This document shows, one piece after another, positions 22,839-57,967 of a stretch of DNA of 64,000 nt. This stretch comes from Thamnidium elegans. Its lineage: Eukaryota; Mucoromycota; Mucoromycetes; Mucorales; Mucoraceae. The notes below the pieces were generated by a model that was not told the origin of the DNA, did no database searches, and saw only the letters and a list, made by a program, of their open reading frames with translations. Within the stretch, counting starts at the first letter, position 1. The number at the start of each line of letters is the position of its first letter. The DNA lies in the NCBI GenBank assembly GCA_025201345.1, contig JAIXMG010000025.1, forward strand, positions 124,001 to 188,000, written 5' to 3'. The translations under genes and the position numbers were made by a program.

Positions 22839-24090
22839 ATTTTTTTAAAAAAAGTTTTTCTAAAGAGAACCGCGTTATCCTATTTTTCGTTTCGTTTCTT
22901 TTTATATATTTTTTTTCAACTTACTATACGGGGAATACGTAAATAAAAAAATTTGAACCAATAGGGTTTATACCAAACGTTTGACCTGTTTTTTTTTCAT
23001 CTATGTTTTTTTTTTGAAATTCTCCATTAGGAAATACCTGTGTGTCAAAATGTTTACGTAATTGTAGAGCGTTGGGCTGAGATCGATATGTAGTAGATAG
23101 TTTCGCCGTTACTCTCCTTCAAGAGTTTGAAGTATGTTTTAATAAAAAAAACTTCTTAAATTCGCATACATTTATGCTAAATTTTTGAGCTATTTTTTTT
23201 TTTTTTTGCGCTATTGTCTACTTTTTCAAGATGAGCCAAAAAAAGGTTTACACTGTGCCAATAATTTGTATAAATGCCTTGTTAGATCATCATCTCCAAG
23301 AGTCTAAAACTAGTTCATATACATTCCAGCTAAAAAAAAAAGGAGGGGGGGGGTGTAAATTCCTATTTTTTTTTTATCAACCATAAAAAATATTATGCGT
23401 ATAACATTGCCTTCGTTCAGTTATTTACGGTTACGCAAAAAGTATGAACTGACACATACGAGACTGTTTCTTCCAAAGAGGAATTTATAAAGTTTTTAAC
23501 GATTGTTGGTAATTCGGCAAATATTCACAAATTGAAGTCAACATGCAATCTGCAAAAACACACACACACACACACACACACATTAGTCAATGTTCAAACA
23601 ACTAGAATGGAGTTTTGTTATAACATTGCTTTTACCAAACAAGAGATGCTTTTATCAATATTGGGACATACGGGCCAAATAAAGTAGAAATGCACCAAAT
23701 CGTAGAAGAGAGCTTTATGTTATGAACGGTATTTATCGTGGTAATATCACTACTAAGCTTGAAGTCAAAAAATACATATTATTTTTAGGTCAATTTGTTT
23801 TAACTTGCGTGAACATTTCTCTTATTCAAAAAGACAAAAATTCTAGACATAAAGGGACAAGTATATTTGGCTTAAGATCGTTTATTTTTTGGTTACAGAT
23901 ATTCAATTTTCTGAAAGTGACAAAATTTACCGCCCTCACTGTATACAGCTCGAGCCTATATTTGTATTGTTCCTAATAAAAGAATGCATTTCACAAAGTT
24001 GCACAGTACGATGCTACAATGTTTACGAAATATAAAAGATACTTTTCTGACCTTTTTTCTTTCTTTTATCTTATCTTTTTTTAAAAAAAA
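22839..24090. other. 1.25-kb divergent spacer
   Basis: Between the dehydrogenase start and the first GRDP gene. Contains homopolymers, a G-run at 23344-23353 and the CA microsatellite at 23558-23582. Short frames at 23.7-24.0 kb are not supported as genes. A T/A block directly precedes the ATG at 24091. Confidence 0.45.
23558..23582. repeat. (CA)n microsatellite
   Basis: Uninterrupted AC/CA dinucleotide run of about 12 units in the spacer upstream of the first GRDP gene. Confidence 0.95.
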
Positions 24091-26985
24091 ATGTTTTCTG
24101 ACAATAATCCTCCCATCCCTACTACCCAAGATGAATTTCCTTCGTTCAACTCAGTTGTTAACGTATCCAATTGTTGGTACTATCTCTCCTTATTAGAGAG
24201 ATTTGTGAATATTACCAGCTCTTTGTCTCAAGACGATCTCAAGGTATACCTTGTTCGCGCAGAATATCGTTATTTTAAATGGATGTTTACAAACATAAAA
24301 GATCGTAAAGTGGCACTTTCTATACCTCCTGTTGGTAAGTACCACAATCGAAACACGACTTTTTTTCTTAAAAAAAATATGTAATTTTATTTGCTTTAAA
24401 AAAAAAGACGTCGCATTTTTTTGGCAGGCACATATGCTTAGCCCTTTAAGATTTCAAGAAGATACTACGCGCTTAGCACCTTTTACGTCAGTTAAAATTC
24501 CATTAAAAGAAATTGTAAGCGATTACCGTATTTAGAGAATATATCTATTAACGTATTTCTTTAGCATGAAATGCACAAAAATACTAACTCGCCTGTGAGA
24601 GAAAATTGGGGAAGACTGATGCGTGGTGAACCATACGAGTTAACGAAAAAGGATCTTTTTAAAAAAAATGGCTACGCAAATGTCACATGTATTGTTTGCA
24701 ACTCACGTATTCAGTCCTCATGGTATGACAAAGTAAATTAAATGAAAGAGAAAAGATATAACAATTATTTCCTTTATAGGAAAGACTATGCCGAATGGCG
24801 AACTGATCATACTATAGCATTACAATGTCATTGTTGCGACGCTATGTTTACGGTAAAACACGTCGGAAAGGCAAATTTATTCCTAGATAATGTCAAGCCA
24901 TATAAAATTGCGTAAGATCGCTTCTTTTTTTTTTTTTCTGTATATCTTTTTTGACAAAATAATTGTTTCTTCTATGTAGAGGATTAACTGTGAATGCAGA
25001 AGGGATTCCATTTAAAACCAGTATGCCAAAAATATTATTGAATCCTACCCAAGATATTAAATCACTGCCTTTTAATGAAGGATTGAAACCACTTGACGAG
25101 TACTTTGAAAAAAAACTAAAGGTTTCTACTCCTTCCAACACTATGATTCGAAAAAGTAAATATATTTTGATTCAATATAATGTTTTATAGTTAAAATTAA
25201 CCTCGTGTGATTACCTAGAGATGATTGATGCTATCCAAAGCACATATCTATGTACGCCTTATAGAGGGAGTTCCATCGATTTGATTCAAGCTGTGGCAAG
25301 GCAGTATAAATTCGCAGTCAAAGCAACTAAAAGAATTAATTGGGACGCACCTCAAGGTATCATTCGTGGTATTCGACACTATGCTAGCTTTCTTGCTGTA
25401 ATTAAAGAAAATAAAGGTTTAACTGCAGTACCTACTTATGAGATAGGTAAAAGTAAAAAAGATCTTAGCATGCACTGGGTACTAATATATTTAAGTAAAG
25501 ATCTTGCCTGGCATACGCACATGCTTCATCACGGCAATTACAGTATGTTTTGCTCACGATTCACTGGAAAAATTATTAACCACGACGATACAATTCCAGA
25601 AAAGGAATTGGAGAGCTATGTGAAAAAGACGGATATGGCCTGGCATGATCGAAATGAGAGACGTAAAATGGCACATTCAACAGATGTTGCCCCTGTTTCT
25701 AAACCCGTAATGCAAAAAAGTGGTATTAAAAATAAACTGAAATTAATCCTATCAACATCTAGAAGCAAAACAGACATCTCACCTGAAAATATACGTAATC
25801 AATTAGCCCATAAGAATAAGTATATCGACGAAAAGGCTTTATTCGGAGACAGATATACTGTAGGAACATATAGAACCACTCCGCCTTATAAGCGAAGTGC
25901 TACAGTTTCAACTGGAAGTGAAAAAAGCGACGTCAATATTAATATAGCCGACTACGATACTGAAAAGATTAGCTTTCATGATAAAAGTAAAGTCCATATG
26001 AATTATTATTACTTGAAATACTAATAAGGGTTATTATATACTAGGAGATATACAAGAGTTTATTACGTTAAAGAACTCAGATCAACTTATGGATGAAAAG
26101 TTCAAAGATGTTAAAAAGTCCGTATATGGATTTATTGGGTAGGTCATAAGTAAAGTATTAGTTATATTAGTAGTCTAAATTGTAACCCTTTTATTATAAA
26201 AAGGACAAGCACTTGTGGAAGTAAGAGACCATATCTCTAAGCTCATAATTTTTTTCTAACTTTCAATACATAGATACCGACTATTTGAATCGATGGTCAC
26301 CCAAAGAGTAAGTATCATACAACATACATAATATATGTGCGGCTAAACTATTTTAAATTGAATAGGAAGAATAAAGACGACAGTAAGATAATAAACATTA
26401 CATTTTATCAAATTTTCTCACAATTACGTACATAAAAAATAGCCAAGCATAATGATTCCTTTTTAGAGTCTGGTTATACAAAAGGTATGCGTAATTACTA
26501 TAAACCATTATAGTAACTCTTTAATAATCATCCTTTTGTTTTTTAAAAAACAGTGTTTCTCACAAGTAAGTTTCAGAGACAACCATGTGATATATCATAA
26601 ATTAAACTTAACTTTATTTTTAGAAAAACCTATGTTTGATTTCAAAAACGGCACTCTTAAGCCAAATCGTAAACGTTATAAGAATTTCCAAAATAATGAA
26701 GCAACTAGATATCATACTCAGAATGACACTTTTAACTGGTATTTGGTTAGTTTAGCATGGTCGGATTCCCACGTACCAAATTGCGATAACAATAAATCCT
26801 CGTGTGGAGGCTGGGGAGGTTCCCCGGACACTGGCGGGGCGGCATGTAACAATACTTCTTCTTCTGGAGTATTTCGGTCTTCTACCGAATACGGTGGAGG
26901 GTCTGCTTCTTGTGGAGGAGGGTCTTCTTCTTGTGGTAGTAGTTGCGGTGGCAGTGGATGTGGCGGTGGATGTGGCGGTAGTTAG
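24091..26985 (+). CDS. GRDP-family protein (DUF1399), copy A, Gly/Cys-rich tail
   Basis: Glycine-rich domain-containing-protein-like (DUF1399/GRDP) family; the biochemical function is unknown, though plant members affect development and stress. Exons 24091-24334, 24408-24514, 24565-24722, 24780-24911, 24980-25155, 25219-25446, 25501-25986, 26045-26138, 26204-26220, 26274-26307, 26366-26382, 26443-26484, 26554-26565, 26624-26985; 702 aa with all phases closing. The two family signatures are DVAFFWQAHMLSPLRF (aa ~82) and DLAWHTHMLHHGNY (aa ~349). Between them CIVC...CHCC with nearby His suggests a zinc ribbon. The tail after FNWYLVSLAWSD is Gly/Ser/Cys repeats (CGGGSSSCG, CGGGCGGS). Five exons near the 3' end are only 12-42 nt. 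It faces copy B tail to tail. Confidence 0.85.
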
Positions 26986-27326
26986 TTAAACTTATAAAAT
27001 AAATGAGTATGGATATTAGAAACAAACCTTTATAAACGTGCATAATAATCAATTTTACAATAAGTAAAACGGCCTAGTTAAACGCTATTCATTATAAGAG
27101 CCTACAATATCGCAGACATATTTTTTTTATAGAATAAAATAAGAACAGTATAATTAGTTCATAATTATCTATAAAACGTTTTACTAAGTTGAAAAAAAGA
27201 AAATATATATTAAAATCTAACAGATAAAGTAACGTAATTAACGGGTAAGTAAAAAGTAGATAATACATATGTATAGTAAAATGTTGCTATATTTTATTTC
27301 TTTCTATAGAAAAGATTGTAAGAATA
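26986..27326. other. Convergent spacer between GRDP copies
   Basis: 341 bp separating the two stop codons. AT-rich, no ORF of interest; serves as both 3' UTRs. No sign that the two halves are a simple recent palindrome. Confidence 0.6.
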
Positions 27327-30300
27327 TTAACTACTGCTTCCACAACTAGATCCTCCACCTCCTCCACAACTCGAAGATGATCCGCCGCAGCTTGAAGATG
27401 ATCCCCCGCAGCTTGAAGATGATCCACCATAACTGGACAATCCACCGCCGCTTGAGTAGGTATAATTACCGCTTGTTGTTCCACAGCCGCTATAAACGAT
27501 TGTATTATAGGGAGGTGAGTTTCCTGTCGAAGAGGAATTGGAGGGGATATTATCACAGCTTGAAGTTATACCAGCACATCTCGAGAGGGATGATTGATCG
27601 TTACCGCAGTTGCTGAACCCTCCACAATCACCACGAGCTTTTCTAGAGGTATCAATCAAGGAATCATACCACATCATGCTTATATTGTACCAATTGAAGT
27701 TATCACCGGCCGTATTATAACTAGTGTTCCGAGATCCGTAGATGTCGTTATGTTTTTTACGGTTTGACTTGTGCAATTCAGGAATATTTTTGAGACCTTT
27801 GGGGCTATATACGGGAGCTTTCCCCTCTACTATAACGTTAGTATGGTAAAATATTATGTCTCGCGTATATACTTACTAGTCAAATAGACTATTAATATAC
27901 GATTAGTTATTTTAAAAACAAAAACATGTAATGTAAAAATATACTATTCTTTTTTTTATACCTTTTTTATATCCGGAAACTAATGGTTCTGTAGAAGCTT
28001 TGCCAACATAGGCTTCTATTATATTAGAAAAAAAAGAGGGAGGGAGGGGTAAGTTTTTTTTTTGTATACTGTATTTTGTAATTTAACTTAAGACTTACTA
28101 GTAAAACTAAAAAAAAAGAATTAGAACTTGTATTTTTTTTTTTATGTACGTATATATACCTTTTATTGTCGCCCCATTGATCTAGAATGTCTGTATCTAA
28201 ACTCATACAAGTTATTGATACTTTAGTTCATGTATAAAGAGTATTAAGATACTTACTTCCGCAGTTACTAGTTCTACACTCGAATGTTTTAAAAATTAAC
28301 AGCTACAGCTTAAATATGTAGAAATGTTGTCTTACCCGATAAATCCGTAAGGAGATTCCTTGGTCTCTTTGAATTTCGAATTCATTAAATTGTCAGAATT
28401 ATTTAACTTGACAAAATCTTTAATATCCCCTAGTATTTGAACAGATTAGTCTATACAGTAAACTACTTTCAGACATATATACCTACTTCTGTCATGGAAA
28501 CTAATTTTTTCCTTATCATAAGAAGGTTCCTCGTTTTCACAATCTTCTTTACTTGGGTTCGACTTCTCATCGTATTTCTCCTCTGATGCGTTATTTTCCT
28601 GAGATATATACTTGTACGTTGATGAAGATTTGTACGTTCCTTCGTCGTAAGCCCATGAAAATAACGCTTTTTCATCACAGTATACATCTCTAGGAGTAAC
28701 GTACTGTATAGGAGGTTTAGGAGAAGGTACGTACGTAGTGTTAGTTAGATGTGCAATAGTAGTAATATCCTTTTTCTTCTTAAAACTCATTAAATGGACG
28801 ATTTTTTTCTTGAAACTTTTCTTCTTTTTAGTATTTTCTGCCTCTGCCTTCTTCGTCTTTTCTTTCTCTTCTCTTGCTTTCTCTGCCTCTTCTCTCTCAA
28901 TTTCGGAATTAGTAGGAGATACAGGACGCGATTCTGGGAGTGTAGGGAGATTTAAAAAAACACGTCTATTGTTTCTTTGTTTCCAGGCTATATCAGTTTG
29001 TTTAACGTGATCCTTTAGGTTTTCCTCAGGAATAGTATCGTCATGATTAATCAACTTGTTAAATATTTTGTAACAGAAATTACGATAAGCGAGGGCAGAA
29101 AGCATATGTGTATGCCATGCAAGATCTACGTTGTTGTTTTTTAACTTTTTTTTTAAAAAATTCTAAATTATTGTCTTTTGAGCTCTTACCAATTTCGTAA
29201 GTCGGGACTGCAATGATAGATTTATTGTCGTGAATGACAGCAAGGAAACTAGCATAGTGTCTAATACCCTTAATCATACCATCCGGTGCATTCCAGTTAA
29301 TTATTTTCGTTACTTTAACAGCGAATTTGTACTGTCTAGCCACAGCTTGAATCATATCGATGGAGCTAGCCCTATAAGGCGTACATAAATAGGTACTTTG
29401 AAGAGCATTAACTACATCTATTTAATAGAAATTATTAGAGCTACTCTATCACAATATGATATTAAAGCATACTCTTTTTAGGTTTGCTGAGATTAGTGTT
29501 GCAGCTAGCTGTACTCTTCTTCTTTTTTAAAAGGTCCTCCAAAGGCCCCAGTCCTTCATTAAAAGGTAACGATTTTATATCTTTGAGAGGTGATAAAAGC
29601 TCATGTTCACAATGGGAGCTGATCTTCTTTCCATTCTCGTCAAGGAGCAGTCCGCTGTTTTTATTGAGTTAGTTATTCGGATCATAATACAGTATTTTTA
29701 TTCTACTTACGCAGTTTTATGTACTCTGGCATTATCAGCAAGTAAATTTGCTTTTCCTACATGTTTTATCGTGAACATAACACCGCAGCAATGGCATTGT
29801 AAAGCTACACTATGATCTGTTCTCCATTCTGCGTACTCATCCCTACATATTTTAGGAGGGAAAGAAAAATCTTAGTCTTTCCAATATACTAATCCGATAT
29901 AGCCAATAGCCTTACCATGCTACTTCCATACGCATATTACAAACAACACATCGAACAGAAGCACTCCCTTCATTTTTTTCAATTACTTCTTCTGTCAAAT
30001 CATAATTTACATCCTTCATAAACCTTCTCCATTCGGCCAAAACCTTGGGGTTGCGATTGGTTTGAAAGTCATGCTAGAATTAATAACACAGTTAAACAAC
30101 ACGTGTCGTTGCTAAATATGGAACATCTAAAAAAGATATCTTACAATTTCTTTCAGTGGAATTAAATCAGACTTGTAAGGTTTTATTCTTAACGTATCTT
30201 CATAAAAACGAAAGGGACTCAACATATGTGCTTGCCAGAAAAAAGCGACATCTATATATAAGTATACAATTTTGGGGAGTTTTACTTAATGAACGAATTT

Positions 30301-30559
30301 ACTAATAATAATTCTTCTTACCAAGAGGAGGTAATGTATCATCTCTTTTACGGGTGCCTTTATTAGCTATCCATTGAAAGTAACGATACTCTGCTCGAAC
30401 CAGATACGTCTTTAAGGTCTTATCAGACATACGACTGGTAACATTCACAAATCTTTCTAGCAGAGAGAGATAGTACCAACAATTGGCGACAGTTACAGTG
30501 TCTAATGTAGGAAATTTAACATTGTGATCTTCCTCCGGAGGTTCTCTATCGTAGTACAT
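27327..30559 (-). CDS. GRDP-family protein (DUF1399), copy B, Gly/Cys-rich tail
   Basis: Paralogue of copy A. Minus-strand exons: 30559-30322, 30251-30145, 30073-29916, 29842-29711, 29654-29473, 29417-29190, 29125-28487, 28429-28336, 28267-28257, 28196-28160, 28106-28099, 28015-27962, 27888-27877, 27829-27327; 800 aa, phases close. Signatures DVAFFWQAHMLSPFRF and DLAWHTHMLSALAYR; Cys cluster CVVC...CHCC. Exons 2, 3, 4, 6, 8 and 13 are exactly as long as in copy A (107, 158, 132, 228, 94, 12 nt). Exon 7 is longer (639 versus 486 nt) because of a charged Lys/Glu insert (REEAEKAREEKEKTKK, KKKKSFKKK). At its end two donors overlap (GTAGGTATAT); only the first keeps frame. The tail repeats CGGSSSS four times. 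Predicted exons of 8, 11 and 12 nt need RNA proof. Confidence 0.85.
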
Positions 30560-30736
30560 TTTTTTTTAAAAAAAAAAAGTAAAAAGAAGAGAATATCAGT
30601 TGCCAATTTTATATATATATATATATATATATGTCTTTATATACTGTACAAGAACTGCGTCTAATATATTATATATATGTGTAACATAAATTCTGGCTAT
30701 CCCTAAAATAAATAAATTGTAACTACTGTGTTTCCA
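30560..30736. promoter_or_regulatory. Copy-B GRDP promoter, squeezed by the adjacent element
   Basis: Only about 180 bp separate the start codon of copy B from the 23-bp repeat array and about 270 bp from the inverted-repeat element. It holds a T(n)A(n) block at 30560-30579 and a TA run at 30612-30632. Any further upstream control would lie inside the element. Confidence 0.4.
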
Positions 30737-37230: not shown

Positions 37231-38399
37231 ATGGCCAGCAAAACAACATTAGGAAAGGGTGGTTTTAGTTTCGAGAATTATACCAGGTAATTTTAAAAAA
37301 TAAATAAATAAAAAATGCCCTTGTACCTAGAAACTGTTAGATTAAAAACAAAAATTACATGTATAGAAATAAAGCACTTGAGTCTAGTGGAGCTAAACCT
37401 CCCAAGGCTACTAGTACCGGTACCACTATTGTTGGTGTCGTCTTCAAAGTAAGCGCTTGTATCTTTTTTTTTAAAAAAAAATGTTGATGATACACGTACT
37501 TAAACTATAACATTAGGACGGTATTGTTTTAGGCGCTGATACTAGAGCTACAGAAGGCCCCATCGTTGCAGACAAGAACTGTGAAAAGATTCATTACATT
37601 GCTCCCAACATGTAAGTAATTATATATAGATATTTTTTTTCTTAGTGTTTACATATATTTCGACATTATAGTTATTGTTGTGGTGCTGGTACTGCTGCAG
37701 ATACCGAATTCACTACCAACCTTATTAGTTCTCAAATTGAATTACATAGTTTATCAACTGGAAGAAAGCCTCGTGTCGTTACAGCCATGACATTGTTGAA
37801 GCAAATGCTTTACAAGTAAGATTTCACGCCTTTTTTATACAGATGGGAAGAGAACAGAAAATTTAAACTTTTTATTATTTTTTAAAAAAAAAAATAGATA
37901 TCAAGGTCATATTGGTGCTGCCCTTGTTTTGGGTGGATTTGATGCAACAGGACCTCAATTATATACAGTTTATCCTCATGGAAGTACCGATAAATTGCCC
38001 TACGTTACTATGGGTTCAGGTTCATTAGCAGCTATGAGTGTTTTTGAAAGCAAGTGGAAGCCCAACATGACAGTAAGTTGGAATTATTATTTACTAGATA
38101 ATACCTCCTAACGAATAATTTTTTTTTTATTGTGTGTGTAGCGTCAAGAAGCTATCGACCTTGTTGAAGAATCTATTGAAGCAGGTATTTTCAACGATCT
38201 TGGATCTGGTTCCAATGTTGATGTTTGTGTCATTACAAAGGATGATACTGAGTACCTTCGTAACTACGGTCGTCCTAACGAACGTGGTGTCAAGGAACAA
38301 AGTTATCGTTTCCCTAGAGGTACTACAGCTATTTTAAAGGAATCTATCCATAAGTTTGTGGATGTTTCAGAAGGTGATTCAATGGACGTTTCATTGTAA
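37231..38399 (+). CDS. PUP1: 20S proteasome beta2 subunit (beta type-7, Pup1)
   Basis: Catalytic (trypsin-like) beta2 subunit of the 20S core. Exons 37231-37286, 37367-37448, 37517-37611, 37672-37815, 37898-38072 and 38142-38399 close to 269 aa. The propeptide of about 35 residues ends [12 protein letters not shown], leaving the N-terminal nucleophile Thr; the Asp/Lys catalytic partners are in [11 protein letters not shown] and the K of [30 protein letters not shown] and [15 protein letters not shown] are conserved beta2 segments, and the long C-terminal extension ([13 protein letters not shown]) that wraps around beta3 is present. Convergent with the SRR1-like gene, 55 bp apart. Confidence 0.96.
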
Positions 38400-57166: not shown

Positions 57167-57967
57167 TTTAGTTAGCACACTTTTTAATTGTTTTTAATTG
57201 TTTTTTTTATTACCTTTTTAAACTTTTCAACGTCGTTTGTAATATTTGTTCTTTTACTGGATAATTCATTCTTTAAACCTGATAATTGTGCCATCAATGT
57301 ATCATTTTCTTGTTTGATCTATTAACAATTGAATTTAATATCCACACCAACTAATATATTCTTTTTTTTTGTTACTTTATTAAATTCCGCAAGCAATCGT
57401 TTGTTCTCTTTCCCTTTTTCACGGCAACTCACTCCTCGTATCACTTGTTCTGGTGTTGGACCCACTCTATTATAATCTAACTTGGTACGCATATAATTGA
57501 CCTTGCAAATTAAAAAAAAACATACCTTTGAATCACTGGTCCTCTATCTTTAGCTACTTTTATCAATTCATCTAACCGATTCATTTTTTCTGTAAAATGA
57601 ATTTCTTTTACTTCATCTTTCACTGACAGCTTTTTTTTTTTTTAAAAAAAAAATGGTTGCAATTTAATTATCTGTATGCTATTTTTTTTTTTTTCTTTTT
57701 TTTTTACTTTTAATTGCGTAACCATGTAGTGTTGTCCTTGTACATTAGCTTCTCGTATAAGCTCTTTCAATTCAGGTACAATGGGATCTAGTTCGCGTGC
57801 TAGTTTATCTACACTACAAAACTATTCAGCAAAAAAACTCTCATTTATAAATATATCGCAAACATATTATTTATTTACTCCAAGATTTTAGCGCATAAAC
57901 TACTCCATTTTTTAGTTACAGCTTCAAATTTGCGTGCTGTCTTTCCTGGTTGAACTTCATCGTCCAT
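57040..57967 (-). CDS. Coiled-coil protein, Nnf1/PMF1-like (kinetochore candidate)
   Basis: Minus-strand exons 57967-57879, 57813-57708, 57629-57526, 57466-57376, 57318-57214 and 57123-57040 close to 192 aa. The arrangement resembles Nnf1/PMF1 of the Mis12/MIND kinetochore complex: N-terminal helix RKFEAVTKKWSSLCAKIL, LIREANVQGQHYMV, a middle part KMNRLDELIKVAKDRG, a Pro-containing turn VGPTPEQVIRGVSCREK, then a heptad coil KRLLAEFNKIKQENDTLMAQ and LSGLKNELSSKRT, and a terminal DELLDAMNKMDLLPERR. Similarity is by layout and a few residues, so another small coiled-coil subunit is possible. Introns carry unusually long A/T runs (57128-57163). Confidence 0.5.

Follow-up and report, generated by a model that had tools for sequence, protein, structure and literature searches.

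The locus considered here, from the fungus Thamnidium elegans, raises the question of how a run of very small exons came to occupy the same place in two adjacent genes, and of what keeps it there. The genes, A and B, lie tail to tail in the 64,000-nt stretch of contig JAIXMG010000025.1 that was analysed as a whole (the window), and both code for GRDP-like proteins of the PF07173 (DUF1399) family. Their structures, their relatives in the same genome, their splice signals and the alternative ways of joining their exons were analysed by computation.

Two GRDP-like genes with matching exon structures

The initial annotation had described two GRDP paralogues of 14 exons each, and its coordinates, strands and exon count were reproduced (Table 1), as was its claim of identical phase at every junction, which was verified at 13 of 13. 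The spliced coding sequences, of 2109 nt in A and 2409 nt in B, contain no internal stops, and all introns (13/13 in A) are GT-AG. The same annotation counted six exons of identical length; these are indeed equal, and the count rises to seven (107, 158, 132, 228, 94, 17 and 12 nt) once B exon 9 is taken as 17 nt. The five exons from 9 to 13, hereafter the chain, extend over 26204-26565 in A and 27877-28273 in B and measure 17/34/17/42/12 and 17/37/8/54/12 nt, respectively, in agreement with the series first proposed (17/11, 34/37, 17/8, 42/54 and 12/12 nt) in every value except the 11 nt of B exon 9. Taking microexons in the usual sense, as internal exons of about 30-50 nt or less, the predicted chain has the size and the conserved splice sites of such exons, with exon 12 of B and of paralogue C (54 nt) at the upper edge of that size.

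Table 1. Position and content of the exons of genes A and B in the window
Feature	Position	Strand	Size	Phase	Description
Gene A	24091..26985	+	14 exons, 702 aa		GRDP-like (PF07173)
A exons 1-8	24091-24334, 24408-24514, 24565-24722, 24780-24911, 24980-25155, 25219-25446, 25501-25986, 26045-26138	+
A exon 9	26204..26220	+	17 nt	2-1	G-T-S-T-C-G; 16/17 nt identical in paralogue C
A exon 10	26274..26307	+	34 nt	1-2	NTDYLNRWSPK; NT-x-x-L-x-x-W common to B, C and D
A exon 11	26366..26382	+	17 nt	2-1	Placed by frame and splice signals only; residues not conserved
A exon 12	26443..26484	+	42 nt	1-1	C-terminal end SGYTK
A exon 13	26554..26565	+	12 nt	1-1	V-F-L-T; chains without it slightly higher by mean splice score
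A exon 14	26624..26985	+			Cys/Gly-rich tail with CGGGCGG
Gene B	27327..30559	-	14 exons, 802 aa		GRDP-like (PF07173)
B exons 1-8	30559-30322, 30251-30145, 30073-29916, 29842-29711, 29654-29473, 29417-29190, 29125-28487, 28429-28336	-
B exon 9	28257..28273	-	17 nt		AACTAGTAACTGCGGAA; G-T-S-N-C-G; 15/17 nt identical in paralogue D
B exon 10	28160..28196	-	37 nt	1-2	NTDILDQWGDNK
B exon 11	28099..28106	-	8 nt	2-1	TTTTACTA; placed by frame and splice signals only
B exon 12	27962..28015	-	54 nt	1-1	C-terminal end SGYKK
B exon 13	27877..27888	-	12 nt	1-1	V-Y-L-T
B exon 14	27327..27829	-			Ser/Cys/Gly-rich tail

Family membership was supported by PF07173 scores of 63.8 bits for A and 56.2 bits for B, and all five proteins of the family found in this genome (A to E, see below) exceeded the curated cut-off of 22.7 bits, with scores of 56.2-80.8 and the best-matching stretch at residues 259-365. 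A fungal DUF1399 gene, CIMG_04521, appears above the 'Downregulated' heading of a Coccidioides expression table, in the part of that report available (PMC8150946). Residues 1-405 of B had no relatives in the PDB at E values up to 1, and searches for family relatives in viral and prokaryotic contigs returned 5 and 78 pattern matches, respectively, none of which was confirmed. Some further domain matches were set aside. A CBM20-like match in A (residues 546-614, E 0.14) was dismissed as it was absent from B, C, D and E, and matches to Stap_Strp_toxin (D only, E 0.037), XRN1_D1 (B only, E 0.016) and Calycin_like (E only, E 0.18) were taken as chance, each being below the cut-off and restricted to a single paralogue.

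An additional observation concerns T-runs followed directly by A-runs (T6A6): the window contains 19 of them, where dinucleotide shuffling predicts 0.68, while the reverse arrangement (A6T6) was seen once against 0.63; over 113.6 kb of the genome, 1.2 kb of which was counted twice, the numbers were 28 against 1. Examples are found at 24076-24091, 30559-30578, 37464-37481 and 57631-57653. In A and B the A-run leads directly into the start codon, and some of the other runs lie just before modelled intron ends, preceding exon 13 of A, exon 7 of D and exon 4 of E.

Paralogues carrying the chain elsewhere in the genome

The search for further family members covered 34.1 Mb in 64 contigs, and the conservation described here is that seen within this one genome. 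Three further complete paralogues carrying the chain, C, D and E, were found; contig 26 holds C and D in head-to-tail order, and E is on contig 20. Their gene models, made by eye under the guidance of A and B, gave chains of 17/34/14/54/12 nt in C, 17/34/41/12 nt in D and 17/40/8/27/12 nt in E, where exon 10 may measure 31, 40 or 43 nt. Genes of the family have 13 to 15 exons, exon 7 of E being split once more. By protein identity, C is the closest paralogue of A (55%) and D that of B (60%), and E shares 31-36% with the other four; the chain, present in E as in A-D, predates their split from E.

The positions of introns on the protein alignment were compared with those of A. Each of the 13 introns of A had a same-phase counterpart within two columns in B and within one column in C. 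D shares the exact column for 12 of them, and E has a counterpart no more than one column away for 11; the introns of E that flank exon 11 were 11 and 8 columns away in a poorly aligned stretch. Gene D lacks exon 11 in our model: a single intron of 134 nt (L021, 3399-3532) takes the place of exon 11 and the two introns around it in the other four genes, its acceptor lying 16 nt inside exon 12 with the frame kept. This intron and its shifted acceptor are reconstructed, as no exon 11 could be placed in D with introns of normal size; the frame-keeping candidates would have to be preceded by an intron of only some 25-31 nt. The 134-nt intron contains a good-looking acceptor (ctaac...cctag) that leads into a stop, as if the microexon had decayed.

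Other traces of the family and its surroundings were recorded. As modelled, intron 4 of E (L022, 2128-2200) starts with a GC donor (gcaagt). Two broken B-like GRDP fragments, both uninformative on the chain, are present on contig 18, one near 323.2 kb (L031, 1157-1672) with exons 1-2 and part of exon 3, and the other near 369.5 kb (L023, 3629-4111) with exons 4-6 and with stops. For neighbours shared by the A/B and C/D pairs, ORFs of at least 60 aa from positions 228000-237999 and 247500-257400 of contig 26 gave no tblastn matches in the window, and neither did the ORFs beside D. A short stretch upstream of A (window 23043-23171, minus strand) gave a single weak match, to one upstream of C (contig 26, 238411-238578, plus strand), with 51% identity over about 45 residues (E 6e-8); the window copy contains stops, and the likeness is perhaps a trace of duplication or a small repeat.

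Conservation of the microexons

Exon 9 is 17 nt long and exon 13 is 12 nt long in all five genes. The V-F-L-T and V-Y-L-T noticed at the outset in exon 13 of A and B are part of a wider series that includes V-F-K-T, V-F-Q-T and V-I-R-T. In exon 9, the differences summed over the six pairwise comparisons among A-D, which are not independent, numbered four at the second codon position and 19 at the third, with none at the first. Sixteen comparisons of flanking chain introns (A-C, B-D and A-B) against letter-shuffled sequence gave z values from -1.2 to 2.8, the highest (2.7 and 2.8) being those of the intron before exon 14 in A-C and B-D; the chain introns are thus near saturation, aligning little better than shuffles. 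The early suggestion that the encoded residues are under selection despite diverged introns is borne out by this pattern, in which the changes of exon 9 fall mostly at the third and never at the first codon position.

The middle of the chain is more variable. Exon 10 preserves N-T-x-x-L-x-x-W in A-D and not in E, with differences that show no preference for position 3; in B, a 22-nt alternative was marginally higher on splice signal alone. No conserved residues were detected in exon 11 across the family, and this exon is the weakest element of the chain, depending on frame and splice signals for its placement. In B, an 8-nt exon occupies this place in the four best-scoring chains.

The 11-nt version of exon 9 in B (28257-28267) was dropped, as the exon measures 17 nt in the four other genes and chains otherwise equal score higher with 17, and the residues of the longer version align one by one with those of A (GTSNCG and GTSTCG). 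The 11-nt version is legal in the chain listings of B, C and D. It depends on a second AG acceptor, located 6 nt downstream of the exon 9 boundary in B, C and D and at the same place in A, and absent in E; if used, this acceptor would remove two residues.

The probability of such exons arising by chance was assessed by means of 5000 dinucleotide-keeping shuffles of the exon 8-14 stretch of each gene. An exon-9-like exon appeared in 0, 0, 0, 1 and 0 of the 5000 shuffles for A to E, and an exon-13-like exon in 6, 4, 2, 1 and 5. Both together were never obtained in 5000 shuffles and are present in 5/5 real genes, a comparison that flatters the chain, as the patterns were defined after all five genes had been viewed.

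Alternative splice chains

All chains with GT-AG introns of 45-140 nt that join exon 8 to exon 14 in frame were enumerated and scored with splice signals learned from exons 1-8 only, the summed score being biased towards chains with more exons. Under the stricter threshold, the model came first among 132 chains in A, 4 in C and 60 in D, and second among 134 in B; two acceptors of the E model have negative scores, which keeps it out of the 6 chains that are legal in that gene. At the looser threshold, with 502, 3717, 139, 1442 and 198 chains for A to E, the models ranked 1st, 6th, 1st, 4th and 9th by sum and 4th, 4th, 1st, 4th and 15th by mean. The chains placed above the model by mean all kept the modelled exon 9 (3/3 in A, 3/3 in B, 3/3 in D and 14/14 in E), and exon 9 is strongly supported by splice signals alone. 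Most of these same chains omitted exon 13 (3/3 in A, 2/3 in B, 3/3 in D and 9/14 in E), which indicates that exon 13 rests on its conservation and not on splice signals. The three better chains of D finish with other exons than the model, one of 57 nt followed by one of 44 or 5 nt.

Splice signals did not set the chain apart from the rest of the genes. Chain introns measure 47-83 nt, plus the long intron of D, against 49-84 nt for the others, and the donors and acceptors of the 29 chain introns did not differ from those of the 36 other introns (Mann-Whitney p 0.52 and 0.22). The branch-point motif CTAAY, present in 8/36 body introns and 6/29 chain introns with a shuffled mean of 3.2 for each, separates nothing. 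In-frame retention is impossible for all 29 chain introns, and the skipping of exon 9, 10 or 11 singly breaks the frame. The lengths of exons 12 and 13 are divisible by three in every gene but D, which allows their skipping in frame; exon 12 of D is modelled with 41 nt.

Splicing and retention of the microexon run

Taken together, these results make it probable that the microexon run is ancestral, is spliced constitutively by intron definition and has been kept by a combination of frame and protein selection. The common ancestor of the five GRDP-like genes would already have possessed the run, placed between a conserved segment ending in G-F-I-G and the C-terminal tail exon. Under intron definition, splicing is independent of exon length, as stated in a review (PMC8624252, available part). 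With ordinary splice sites and intron lengths of some 47-84 nt, recognition would occur across the intron, and exons of 8-17 nt could be routinely included; ordinary sites, short introns and the frame break caused by skipping exons 9-11 favour such constitutive inclusion. The persistence of the chain could then be due to the loss of any asymmetric microexon breaking the frame and to protein selection on the ends of the linker, G-T-S-x-C-G at the front and K-V-F-x-T at the back.

A serious alternative, to which we give somewhat less than even chances, is that the run has a single origin, introns having been gained repeatedly within a fast-evolving linker, and has been kept because precise intron loss is rare, its layout having no function. 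The variable length and sequence of exons 10-12 speak for it, as does D, whose model has lost exon 11 in a gene that is otherwise open; the exact lengths and the residues of exons 9 and 13, kept in five genes, argue against it. As this reading assumes the same splicing as the constitutive, selected run and differs in denying the layout a role, the two overlap and the probabilities attached to the readings do not sum to one.

It is rather unlikely that the chain works as a regulated cassette, in which the symmetric exons 12 and 13 are skipped or included and the second acceptor of exon 9 is used to generate several protein versions before the tail. Such a use would draw on the symmetry of exons 12 and 13 outside D, on the slightly higher mean splice score of chains without exon 13 in A, B and D, and on the acceptor at +6 in A-D, and it has a precedent in the regulated microexon inclusion of Trichoderma Xlr2 (PMC11121469, available part). 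The asymmetry of exons 9, 10 and 11, the splice sites of the chain, which as a group are not weak, and the residues of exon 13 kept in five genes speak against it. The initial idea that the chain diversifies the region before the tail found no support for the same reasons, since losing any one of exons 9-11 disrupts the frame and the splice sites are as strong as elsewhere, even though exons 12 and 13 could be skipped. Similarly unlikely is a broader version, according to which the family is a fungal counterpart of the micro-exon genes of animals, with an ancestral and selected device of five microexons whose symmetric last two members, together with the duplicated acceptor of exon 9, tune the linker before the Cys/Gly tail, or in which the message is aborted when an asymmetric exon is missed.

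That the chain is an artefact of modelling, real transcripts having fewer and larger exons here, is very improbable, for although chains with two or three internal exons are legal in A, B and D, and in E at loose thresholds, those of A, B and D are lower in summed splice score (a score that favours more exons), all four strict chains of C have five internal exons and its looser ones never fewer than four (a number reached by 49 of 139), and the same chain is seen in five genes and is not yielded by shuffles.

The microexon run has consequences for annotation and for experiment. Exons of 8-17 nt are commonly missed by gene finders, and orthologues are probably mis-annotated in the stretch of the chain. 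The five paralogues, together with the apparent natural loss of a microexon (exon 11 of D), offer a ready test of small-exon recognition among short introns, and the same set would serve to tell whether such an old run persists for the sake of the protein or is merely hard to lose.

Comparison with known systems

The micro-exon genes (MEG) of schistosomes contain a run of symmetric microexons that are alternatively skipped, and their products are secreted. The genes described here resemble them in having several microexons in a row. However, exons 9, 10 and 11 are asymmetric here (17, 34-40 and 8-17 nt), and no signal-like N-terminus was seen in A-E, where the highest 19-residue hydropathy among segments starting in the first 42 residues was 0.65-1.01 by a crude test.

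Among fungi, the initial annotation regarded chains of microexons as unusual. This is only partly right: microexons have been published for the P450 genes of Phanerochaete (PMC1184071), for Trichoderma Xlr2 and Schizosaccharomyces pombe (PMC11121469) and for Fusarium CYP621A (PMC12940212). For a conserved run within one fungal family, no report was found in the titles and abstract openings among the matches listed. The P450 genes of Phanerochaete chrysosporium (PMC1184071) are similar to A-E in their tiny exons, down to 6 nt, their frequent introns of 45-55 nt and their membership in fungal multigene families, but their microexons are spread over many families, and the available part of that report describes no single run kept in all members. 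The one-nucleotide exon of Fusarium CYP621A (PMC12940212, available part) is likewise tiny and frame-keeping and was likewise hinted at by an over-long intron; it is one microexon confirmed by reads, whereas here four or five in a row are predicted from the DNA. Trichoderma virens Xlr2 (PMC11121469, available part) also has a fungal microexon, but a single one, regulated by glucose.

With respect to the protein family, the plant proteins AtGRDP1 and AtGRDP2 share with A-E the PF07173/DUF1399 domain, and their Cys/Gly tail has counterparts of varying likeness in A-D (PMC4299439, available part). The core CGGGCGG of the plant tail consensus [CG]GGGCGG[GC] was found in A only; the tails of B and C are rich in Cys, Gly and Ser and that of D more weakly so, none of the three having the exact consensus, and E is without a Gly tail. 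The RNP-1 motif KGSCFLPM, as in AtGRDP2, was not found in A-E, where the best matches covered 3 or 4 of its 8 residues; this motif is absent from two of the four Arabidopsis GRDP members and is not needed for PF07173 membership (PMC4299439, available part). The two groups also differ in gene structure, AtGRDP2 being described in the same report with five exons, against the 13 to 15 of A-E.
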